Below are positions 37,601-43,600 of a DNA stretch of 64,000 bases, in pieces (the first letter of the stretch is position 1; every line of letters starts with the position of its first letter). This DNA is from Xiphias gladius (taxonomy: Eukaryota; Chordata; Actinopteri; Istiophoriformes; Xiphiidae), in the NCBI RefSeq assembly GCF_016859285.1, contig NC_053409.1:27593539-27657538 (forward strand), given 5' to 3'. A program made the translations under genes and the position numbers. The notes beneath the pieces were generated by a model that saw only the letters and a program-made list of their open reading frames with translations, made no database searches and was not told the DNA's origin.

Positions 37601-40600
37601 GAATAAACTGCTGCGTTTACTGTTTCAGACGTCCAGAGAAATCAAAGTATCCGGAGCAATCGGACCCTGTGTGTCTCTGAACGCTAAAGGACCCTGTGTC
37701 TCTGAGAACGTATGTAACCACCAGCACACAACTGACCTGTGACCTTTAATACAGGTTCATCTCCACGACAGGTTTATAGATGTGCTACAACATGTGTTAC
37801 AGGAGATCGGTACTGGAGGAACGTGTCAGTGGAAGATCTGTGGTTCGGATCCCAGCACCACACTGGCTCTTTACTTCGAGGTCGTCAACCAGGTACAAAC
37901 ACCTGTCCTCTGACCTGTAGGCAGTCTCAGTTTGGTTTATCACTTGTCAGCAGCTGGTCTGAGATCAGCCTGAAGCTGCAGAATGATTGATGATACTAAC
38001 AACTGCTGGTTAATAAACAGAAAATCACAATATGAACAAACATCAATTTACACATCAACAGAAAGCTTTAAAATAGGAAATGACAGTTTTTTAATATTTA
38101 TCCAAATGGTAAATGGACTGCATTAATATAGCACTTTCTTATCAACCACTGAAAGCACTTTACACTACCTCCACATTCACCCAGTCACACACACATTCAT
38201 ACAGCGCCTTCTATACAAACAGCACTTTCTATACACACACACAATGTCACCGTACAGGGTGATGTCCAGCAGCTTCAGGCTGCAGAGACACTCTGAAACT
38301 GCAGGGGGGCACACAGAGCACACTGAGGTCAACAAAATTAATGCTCCAGCTCAGATCAACAAAATAAAAGCTCCAGCTCAGATCAACAAATTAAATGCTC
38401 CAGCTCAGATCAACACAGATAATAGCTGCAGTCACAGCTGAGTTTTGGTTTGAACAAATGTTTTTCCGATGTGGATCGGGAGTTTTCAAAAGTTAACTGA
38501 CTGAGGGGCAAACAGAGAATGGAGAGCAGACAAAAAAAAGGAATGAGCACACAAAATATAAACTGAGTCAATATCCAATAATTCAATTTATTATTATTAT
38601 TTTTATTATCATTATTATTAAATAAATACTTATGTTACAATCAGAGTTTTCTGTTTTCTTATTACTGATGAAACTTTCTCCTTACATGTTATCTCCTCAG
38701 TTAAATTCTCTCCTGTGGTTGAGATTTTTGAGATTTATTTTTTAACTTTGACAATCTTGATTCCTCTCCTCAGCTCCAGCTGGTTACAGAATGTTCTTAT
38801 GTTTTAATGCGATTAAGGAGTAACTTAACATTAAATCTACATTTTGAGTTAATAAACTACACAAACAGTCACTTTATCAAACTGTCTATAGATCCTGGTC
38901 CCGTTGTAAAATGTCTATCCCAACAGAAGCTATTTTCCTTTGTCCAGAGAAAATCCAGTGATCATTCTGTAAATTTATGAAACAGACAGTCCAACAATCA
39001 CACTGGCTTTACGCAATGATTAGGCAGGTGGGTAGAGGTGTGAAAGAAGGCAGGGCTTGAACTTCAGAGAAGCTGCAGGTGTCCACTAACTGTTTTTCAA
39101 CTCAACTGGAATCAAAGTTTTGAATGTACTGGAGGAGGAATGTCTTCAAATTGTACGAACTGAATCCCAGAATGCACTCTTAATTGTCACAGGTCAGCAA
39201 GATGGTCTAACTTTCCCTGCAGGTACAGCAGGTGTTTCTGTCTTAGAACTGATGATGAAGAAGCTGTAGCAGTGGCTGTGTCAGCTGTGTTGATCATGTT
39301 GATCATCGTGCTGTTGGGATCGGTGTTTCTGGTGATGACGGTGGACGTGTTGACGTTGTCGTTGTGCTGATGCGATTGGTCGTGTGCAGATGGAGGGCGG
39401 AGCTCTGGGGCCTTGACTCCACAGGTGTCCCAGAACATGGACACCTCCGAATAAACCTGCTGACACTCCGATGCACCGCTGTCCTGTATCTACTGGAGAC
39501 AGACGGTCAGAAGCTTACATACAAAATTGCGCTATCAGAGCAGCATCAGAGTATTTTATTGCTACTTCACAGCAGGTCTAACATGCCACCGAGTTCCACG
39601 GTTGTAATGGAACCACTGGATGTGAAGCAGGGTACTTACATTACAATCTTTGCCTCTACTAAGTCATACTTACATCTGCGTCATGCAGGTGATCCAGGGG
39701 TTTAGGGCGGCACTGCTAAGAACCAGCCAGGCAGAGAGAGCAGAAGTCACAGCAGGACACTGCTGACCACTGAACGTCTCGTACAAACACACTGAGATGT
39801 AGGGCAGCCAGCAGACCAGCAAACACACTTAGAACAAGAAAGGAAACTTTTACCAGACGACCAAATCAGAACCAACCAAACACTGGTAGTCCTCAAGAAG
39901 ACGCTGTTTGTCTGGGAAGTAGTTGCAAAGGTCTGGAGCAAGTTGCAGGAGTCAGGGGACTAGTGGCTGAAGTCATAGGACAAGTTGCTGAGGTCTGGGG
40001 ACTAGTTGCAGAGGTAGAGAAACTTCTCCATGAGAATAACAGCTGAGGCTCATGGGTATTGTAGTATTTAGAGCTGTCCACGAAACTGACTTAAAAAACA
40101 TGACTTCTCATCTGATGGTCGGGACATGAACCTGTAGTTTCCCCCCCCCCAAAACCCATGTCAGATCAAGTCAGATTTTATTTCTATAGATCAATACCAA
40201 AAATCACAAATTTGCCTCAAGGGGATTTACAGTCTGTAAAGCATACGATCCCCTCTGTCCTTAGACACTGTTTGCGTTGAGTTTTATGACCAGCTTACAC
40301 GTTTTCATACATGTTCTGTCAACATGTTCTGTCTGTTCTGTTTATGATGTCTGCAGATGTTCATAAACTCTCCCAGGCTGGTTAAAACCTGTCAATTCCT
40401 TGGAAGGACTCATGTCGTACTCACCACTCCGCTGCCCTCAGGTTCTCTTTTGAACACTAACACTCACTTCTACTTTGGCATTTTTTTGAGTGCTGTTAAA
40501 TTATTGTCACTGAAATAGACTTCTTGCACAGATGTTTCACATTAAAAGGCTTTCAGGAAAGGAAGGAGTTCTGCCACATTCGGTCACTGGTAGACTTTAA

Positions 40601-43600
40601 ATGTGAAACATTTAGTAGCTTAACACTGAATAAAAAAGCAGCAAAGTAGAAGCAACTGATAATCAGAGAATGTGAACAATATAGTCGTTAACCAGAGAAA
40701 GTGTTTTTCACAGAGTTGTGAGTGTGACATGACTCTGTTGTTGGAAATTAACATTATACTGAATTTATCAACACAGTGGGTAAACATGGAGGAAGTGTTG
40801 AATTTGTACCAATAGCGAATTAAACAGGAACAGATCAGAAATCAGGGAGGATTCTTACTAGAATATGTTCCAGTATACTTAAACAACAGGGGAACCTTTT
40901 TAAATAAGTATAGAGAAACTTATATAGCAGCTTTCCCGAAAAGTTTCACTGCGAAGTTCTGTTCATTAAACAGTAACTTAGACATCGTGACAGAAATTAA
41001 TTTCACTTCAATTAAGATTAGGTAAATAAGATAAAATGTCCACTGGTAGATTGTAGTGTGTTAAGAGCTTTGAATCATGGTTCTGATTGGACAGACTGCA
41101 CTCTGCACACTTAAATTTCCACCAAGTACCTTCAAAGTTTTCCATCAGATCGAAATATTCAACATGTCTGCTGCTTCATTTTAGACACATTTACCCAAAA
41201 TTCAGCTGAGAACTTGGGAACTGGGATCTTCAGAATTAAAAAAAAATTAAGAAATATGGACACACAATATGAGTTTGTAAAGACGAAAGGGGCAGGTAGG
41301 TCATGTCAGGGACCAGTTAGAACATAGCATGAACTCACCTGAGGTTGTGACCATCACGTGGGAGCTCCTCAGGTAATTGTTGGCAGGAACATAGAAACAG
41401 TGCAGCTCATTGCACATGAACGTTCCCCTCTGTGCCTGTTTCCTGGCCACATAGACGATGTATCCATACAGAGAGCACATGGTGAGGATCGGTGCCACGA
41501 TACCCAACGACATCCACAGCACCACAAAGTATCTGTTATCAGGTGTGAAGCTCAGGCAGCAGAGGAACCGCGACTCACTGTAGATGTAGCTGCCAAACCC
41601 CAGAAGGGGCAGGGAGGCATTTACCAGGCAGAACAGCCACACCAGAACCAGCACCACCCGGCTCCGCCTGGGCGTCCAGATGCTACGGTAGCTGAGGGCA
41701 AAGCAGATCTCTGTGAACTTGTCTACAGTCGCCCAGGTGAGTGAGTGGATGGAGGAAGTCTGCAGGAGGAGGAAGATGAAGCCGCTGCCCTGACAGAATG
41801 CACCCTCGCTGGGGTATCCAGAGGGCTTTGAGAGGCTGTTGTGAGCCCCGAAGGGGATGGTGGAGAGTCCGAGGGCCAGATCGCTGAGGCTAAAGCTCAG
41901 GATGAGGCCCAGTGTGTCGGACTGAAGCTCCTTGTTGAGGAGGAGCACCAGCAGGAGGAGAAGGTTCCCACAGATGGAGGCCATGCTGGACAGAACCATC
42001 AGTGTGGCATACAGCATCCTCAAGGCGTCCGCCATCTTCACAGCAAAGGAACTATGTCACTGATTACGTACATCACAAATCAGACAGGACATGTGAGGAC
42101 TCTTATATTCGACCTTACTGTCCAGAACGAGCAGGAACCCGGATGTGTTGAGCTGCAGTTCCTATAATGTCAACTGTATGTTGCTCTAAGAAAATCTGAC
42201 TGTATTCAAATGAATGGGAAAACTCCCAAAGTCTGTCCACAAATACAAAGTCAATATCTATAATCCCATGATCAGAATTCCACACTTGGGTCACATGATA
42301 ACAACCAATCTATCTCCATGACAACTGATCAATTCCATCAAATGAGGAATGCCAGGAGATTTGGTTGAAAGCTCCAGAAGTAACAAGTAATTTGGACCCT
42401 CTGTTGGGACTTTTTTTGTCAAAAAGTCAGTACAGTTCAACTCTCAGGAGATCAATGACATCCTGCTTGTCAGTGACATCTGGAATAGTTTTTGTGAAGT
42501 GGTTTTTGTATGTCCACTTTGATACAGAGAACCTGGATTTGACGTCACATAAAGGAGTAATAAAGATGGATTCTAGTACTAGTTTTACACTGTTGATATG
42601 AAAGATATGCATCCATACACATTAGATAGATCATAGATGTATGAATTTGAGCCTGTGAGGCATCTAAGCGATTGCGAACAGACGAGGACTAGGAGGAATA
42701 ATGGTCACTGTCCTATATGGAGAACCAGGTGAGAACTGGGCAGACTGGTGAGTTCAGAATTGGATAACAGTACCTAACACTGTGATGTTTCACTTCACGG
42801 TTTTTTAAAGTTTTCTATTACACATCAGGCAGGAACAACGTTGTAACCTTGTAACAGTGGCAACGGCCAAAACACAGTAATTCAGCTTGATGAAAAAGTT
42901 AAAAGCAGGTGAAAGTGAGTTCAGACAGAATATGAAACTGAGGCGAAGACGCGTTGCACCAGTTGAAAATGTTTCAGCTTACGTGGAAAATTTCCACGTA
43001 TCCTGGGGCTTATGAACCTACTTCAAAAACATACAGGAAGGAGAGGAAATAGGAGACTGGAGGCAAGTATGGGCTTGGTGACGTCCACCACCTGCTTAAT
43101 GCTCTGTGGAGAAACTGAATTCCTTATGTGACTTCAGAAGAAGCTCTTTTTCAAGCCGTAACTCAAAATACCTGCTTGCTATTGGATTTTCTGCTGTCGC
43201 AGCCAATAAAACATATAAAACAATATTCAGTTGAAACCGCATATAGTGATCACTTCTGTCCAGGTCAAATTGATCACTGTAAGCGGATGGCTATTGTAAC
43301 CCAATTTCTTTTCGTTTTCTTTATTTTTCATGCAGATTACTATCTAATTGACATTCGTATAATTGTTACTTGAATATAAAGTGATGAAACGGACAGCTTC
43401 GCTATTTTCTGATTCAAAGATGAAATAACATAAACTGTGCCATGGCCCTCTCCAGCTCCAAGCCCAGGCTGAACAGTCGGGGTGAAAGCATTACACACCT
43501 GCTGCTGTGAGAGCAGGGACGATAATTACGCACTGTAAAACTCCCAAAACAGGAGCGGAGCAGGAACGGGAGGGCAGAATAACTGACCGAGCCACAGCGG

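Follow-up and report, generated by a model that had tools for sequence, protein, structure and literature searches.

A 64,000-nucleotide stretch of the Xiphias gladius genome (assembly GCF_016859285.1, contig NC_053409.1, positions 27,593,539 to 27,657,538 of the forward strand; hereafter the window) probably contains a real and intact three-exon gene for a class A seven-helix receptor, lying antisense within an intron of SEC23A, with an ordinary core, a rewritten cytoplasmic switch and a likely coupling to G proteins. The three exons (coordinates in Table 1) join on the minus strand into 1041 nt, encoding 346 amino acid residues and a stop codon with no frame break, and both introns are bounded by GT..AG. 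The full protein matches the Pfam family 7tm_1 over residues 23-278 (119.2 bits against a curated cut-off of 30.5), has exactly seven Kyte-Doolittle hydropathy peaks of at least 1.0 and possesses the class A landmarks N1.50, D2.50, W4.50, P5.50, P6.50, P7.50 and C3.25, the cysteine of transmembrane helix (TM) 3. We infer that the product is a cell-surface seven-helix receptor. The gene is located entirely within the SEC23A intron 37893-45848, on the opposite strand; the plus-strand exons flanking it match solved Sec23A chains, scoring as high as 952.9 bits against 445.8 bits for the top yeast Sec23 chain, in a comparison that listed 8 distinct sequences, without Sec23B among them. An earlier description of the same stretch, made from its letters alone (the sequence-only reading), had claimed the 346-residue open frame, the seven helices and the antisense nesting, and all of these are borne out. 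Among the matches listed in a literature search that left most subscription journals outside its reach, no G-protein-coupled receptor nested in a SEC23A intron was found.

The coding case is carried by the profile match. On its own, exon 1 reaches 98 bits against 7tm_1, and its frame, 251 residues from stop to stop, exceeds every other minus-strand frame and ranks second in length in the window. The longest frame did not exceed 213 residues across 300 first-order Markov simulations of the host intron, and in 2000 simulations with the composition of exon 1 the 99% point was 214 residues and the maximum 253. Since these latter simulations could reach the observed length, frame length alone is strong evidence yet not decisive, and it supports the profile match rather than replacing it; a chance open frame is thus ruled out chiefly by the profile. 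A retrocopy is unlikely, as the gene has two introns. The G+C content at third codon positions (GC3) is 0.776 in exon 1, and the G+C content of intron 1 is 39%; the cytoplasmic tail, with its lower GC3 (0.50), has the weakest support of all the coding parts. A solved chain of the histamine H2 receptor aligns gap-free through both exon joins. Splice sites were ranked by a consensus score built on general site frequencies, among the 189 GT and 164 acceptor sites of the gene. The sequence-only reading had called the sites clean; both introns have GT..AG ends, the donors rank 1st and 5th of 189, and the acceptors, considered below, are only moderate.

The chosen start codon lies in the context GAAGATGGCGGA, which agrees at 11 of 12 positions with the consensus SAASATGGCGGC of the translation initiator of short 5' untranslated regions (TISU) as given in PMC5577775. 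The window has five sites within one mismatch of this consensus, where 0.39 would be expected; the sole exact TISU/YY1-type 12-mer, CAACATGGCGGC, is found at 30118-30129 on the minus strand, opposite to and upstream of the SEC23A coding start. The context is suggestive and backs the chosen receptor ATG, short of proof. At the other end of the gene, read-through of exon 2 past its donor meets a TAA at once (CAG ATG TAA), and an AATAAA follows within intron 2 (39555-39673, minus strand); a shorter receptor form ending in this intron, lacking helix 8 and the tail, is possible. Beyond the receptor stop, an ATTAAA at 38803-38808 is slightly closer than the first AATAAA listed in Table 1.

Besides the landmarks, the receptor keeps S3.39, D3.49, Y5.58, W6.48 with the CWLP motif and N7.49, and ten positions among the structurally strongest are retained; the Asp2.50, TM3 Cys and CWLP named by the sequence-only reading were confirmed, and so were its D-K-F and N-P-W-I-T motifs, with codons AAG for the Lys and ACC for the Thr. 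Two class A hallmarks, Arg3.50 and Tyr7.53, are both absent, being replaced by Lys and Thr, respectively. Both are invariant (15 of 15) in a hand-entered set of human yardstick receptors (15 for residue columns, 14 for identity and 17 for the tree). According to PMC3414077, Arg3.50 of the DRY motif is present in 96% of class A receptors and is typical rather than obligatory, since named members lack it; PMC10900288 gives NPxxY in 94%, with NPxxxY and NPxxF as variants. Given these two frequencies, the pair of Lys3.50 and Thr7.53 is rare. Among the literature matches listed, neither R3.50K nor a DKF/DKY motif occurred. Position 6.30 is Tyr, so the acidic partner of the ionic lock is absent anyway, and the sequence-only reading, right about the Lys, over-stressed this lock. 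Two of the three hydrophobic-lock positions are polar (Thr6.40 and Ser6.41); position 6.40 is hydrophobic in all 15 yardsticks, and Thr at 6.41 occurs in GPR52 and GPR21. Overall, the changed cytoplasmic-switch residues comprise F2.46, A3.46, K3.50, F3.51, Ala in place of the Pro of the second intracellular loop (ICL2), T6.40, S6.41, L6.44 and T7.53.

The distribution of these changes was assessed over the 26 columns on which at least 80% of the 15 yardsticks agree (residues 10-300). The receptor keeps 17 and loses nine (1.53, 2.42, 2.46, 3.46, 3.50, 3.51, ICL2 Pro, 6.44 and 7.53), and the cytoplasmic half holds all nine lost columns against 8 of the 17 kept (one-sided p = 0.008). The two altered microswitches reported by the sequence-only reading are both real, and the extent of change was understated, as seven more conserved columns of the cytoplasmic half differ. 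Lowering the threshold to 70% gives 13 losses, 11 of them in the cytoplasmic half (p = 0.010); at 90%, the receptor loses 5 of 12 columns, more than any yardstick (at most 4 of 15). None of the 15 yardsticks, treated in the same way, fell below p = 0.227. These data also bear on a gene in early decay, in which the frame is still open, function was lost recently and the switch changes are relaxed drift. The alteration of several near-invariant residues and the weak composition of exon 3 would fit decay, but 346 codons free of stops and frame shifts, the ten retained structural positions and the confinement of the losses to one side of the bundle, where drift should strike both, make it quite improbable.

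It may fairly be inferred that the activation or coupling of this receptor is unusual. Coupling to G proteins would most likely be retained, with Lys3.50 substituting for Arg, the inactive state would be loosened, and the outcome would be weak, non-standard or partly ligand-independent signalling. BILF1 carries EKT naturally and shows constitutive signalling, and its Lys-to-Arg form signals as the wild type (PMC3414077); Lys3.50 therefore need not silence a receptor. In the A2A receptor, loosening of the 3x43/6x40/6x41 lock leads to higher basal activity (PMC6954041). Thr7.53 is harder than Lys3.50 to reconcile with normal coupling. The main rival explanation is a receptor that is intact but has lost the ability to activate G proteins and acts as a decoy, a scavenger or through arrestin only, both key microswitches being lost. 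Such a receptor would agree with the joint alteration of R3.50 and Y7.53, with the loss of the ICL2 Pro, with the non-signalling behaviour of C5L2, which has Leu at 3.50 (PMC3414077), and with the solely loss-of-function mutations observed at Y7x53 (PMC6954041). We consider it unlikely, in that Lys preserves the positive charge of Arg and is the residue with which the EKT receptor signals (PMC3414077), and in that D3.49, Y5.58 and W6.48, unneeded in a pure decoy, are all retained. A bolder form of the coupled receptor, in which a lineage-conserved protein had its module of 2.46, 3.46, 3.50, 3.51, ICL2 Pro, 6.40, 6.41, 6.44 and 7.53 rebuilt as a unit and would couple via Lys3.50 without the Tyr7.53 relay, is held at slightly lower probability still, as a speculative proposal.

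Several points weigh against the intact, G-protein-coupled receptor that we prefer. Exons 2 and 3 alone score 19.3 bits for 7tm_1, below the cut-off of 30.5, and the acceptors of both introns, ranking 5th and 17th of 164, are moderate in strength. The cytoplasmic split is the author's own and was defined once the losses had been seen; its p value rises to 0.071 at the 90% threshold, and the yardstick control is weak, with little power, because the yardsticks lose at most 7 columns. The total loss at 80% (9 of 26) resembles that of GPR26 and rhodopsin, at 7 of 20 and 7 of 22, respectively. The loss-of-function record at Y7x53 argues for poor coupling.

Regarding kinship, no named close relative of the receptor is present in the sets searched. 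The NCBIfam search of the protein assigned no family, and of the pattern matches obtained from viral_contigs (3) and genome_contigs (30), none encodes a relative. Modelling of exon 1 by itself as a single sequence gave no confident fold (mean predicted local distance difference test score, pLDDT, 39.8; predicted template modelling score, pTM, 0.28). Identity to the 14 human yardsticks ranges from 20.6 to 26.8% over the best-scoring piece of each, and the top match among solved structures (best 60 of 463 distinct sequences listed) is histamine H2 with 72 bits, followed among the matches listed by beta adrenergic, A3, A2B, GPR52, TAAR9 and GPR101 chains; the absence of a close named match noted by the sequence-only reading thus stands within these sets. 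The class A phylogeny it had called for was built with 17 yardsticks and leaves the receptor unplaced, with a fork support of 35/71, a long-branch flag and no well-supported fork holding it; it joined neither GPR21/52 nor GPR101/161.

Asp3.32 defines aminergic receptors, including histamine H2 and the trace amine-associated receptors (TAAR), and Lys7.43 defines opsins. With Phe3.32 and Leu7.43 in these positions, an amine receptor and an opsin were both ruled out, and the ligand would be something other than a classical amine. Histamine H2 shares the class A fold and aligns gap-free over TM6 to helix 8 (25% identity over 288 columns), but it has Asp3.32, DRY and NPxxY where the present receptor has Phe3.32, D-K-F and NPWIT. 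The GPR52 chain matches with 58.9 bits over residues 11-309, and GPR21/52, near which PMC6504862 places the GPR211 clade, share a Thr or Ser at 6.41 with the receptor; in contrast, the GPR21/52 yardsticks carry DRY and Tyr7.53, and the NP of the NPxxY motif is missing from them. GPR26 and GPR78 are likewise divergent orphans, and it is with them that the weakly supported fork is formed. GPR78 also lacks Arg3.50 (PMC3414077), whereas the GPR26 yardstick has Arg3.50 and Tyr7.53, lacks N7.49 and is 23.8% identical. BILF1 and C5L2 depart naturally from Arg3.50, to Lys in BILF1 (PMC3414077), a functional parallel only that implies no kinship; Thr7.53 and the polar 6.40/6.41 are extra changes in the receptor described here.

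The receptor is best read as a known kind, an orphan class A receptor as in the vertebrate clades without a human orthologue, of which 142 are reported in PMC6504862. That source lists GPR211, GPR198, GPR188 and an unnamed HTR4/TAAR group as clades with ray-finned fish members near the matched receptors, and GPR187, near H2, without teleosts; the names GPR198, GPR211, GPR188, GPR187 and GPR210 were shown for these clades, in the literature searched, only in the same article. Whether the receptor belongs to one of the listed clades, such as the four with fish members, which would be compatible with our preferred explanation, is an evenly balanced question. Their ray-finned fish members, the GPR52, adenosine, TAAR and GPR101 chains among the best 60 solved-structure matches and a TM6-TM7 region by eye reminiscent of GPR21/52 speak for membership, but the tree's failure to join the receptor to GPR21/52 or GPR101/161 and the higher score of histamine H2 over GPR52 speak against it.

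Should D-K-F and N-P-W-I-T persist in orthologues, the receptor would be a natural case in which two components of the activation pathway common to class A are dispensed with, and, were the switch indeed rebuilt as a unit, a natural experiment on which components of that pathway can be replaced. If the motifs are not kept, it would be one more receptor that lies outside the named human ones and has yet to be studied. The SEC23A intron location provides a synteny marker for tracing orthologues and dating the losses.

Table 1. Features of the receptor gene and its host intron (positions in the window).
Feature	Position	Strand	Remarks
SEC23A host intron	37893..45848	+	flanking exons match Sec23A; ends GT..AG
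TISU-like start context	42028..42039	-	around receptor ATG; 11/12 vs consensus
Exon 1	41339..42035	-	residues 1-232 plus one base; start codon to beginning of TM6, with TM1-TM5
Lys3.50 codon	41718..41720	-	AAG (D-K-F), read from sequence
Intron 1	39828..41338	-	phase 1; GT..AG; donor rank 1/189, acceptor rank 5/164
Exon 2	39674..39827	-	TM6, TM7, CWLP, NPWIT; ungapped vs histamine H2
Thr7.53 codon	39688..39690	-	ACC (N-P-W-I-T), read from sequence
Intron 2	39493..39673	-	phase 2; contains AATAAA 39555-39560; donor rank 5/189, acceptor rank 17/164
Exon 3	39303..39492	-	helix 8 (Y8.50-R8.51), cytoplasmic tail, stop codon
Candidate poly(A) signal	38734..38739	-	first AATAAA 3' of stop, motif match only; further AATAAA beyond

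Scans with Rfam (gathering scores) and for tRNA genes were both empty, and the bacterial promoter and terminator scan is uninformative for this genome. The host intron also harbours a 39-nt repeat in three copies with 27-nt spacing (38323-38415). Other SEC23A introns contain long tandem repeats, one frame of which reads as SDTHL repeats (32037-33062, plus strand), and a Tc1/Tc3-like transposase piece (34730-35257, minus strand; HTH_Tnp_Tc3_2, 26.1 bits, under the cut-off of 31.5). Upstream of SEC23A, an exon of the SRP54 GTPase domain is located at 24242-24391 on the plus strand (56.2 bits). A single frame of 478 residues at 60703-62136 (plus strand) scores 28.2 bits for EGF_CA, over the cut-off, and 21.6 for Lectin_C, under the cut-off of 22.6; it is reminiscent of CLEC14A, a neighbour of human SEC23A. 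A leucine-rich repeat frame at 7042-7458 (minus strand; LRR_8, 77.7 bits) is reminiscent of LRRC57, a tentative name. Finally, a reverse transcriptase piece is present at 63400-63729 on the plus strand (RVT_1, 53.2 bits), and the plus-strand frames at 9363-10264 appear by eye to belong to the same element.

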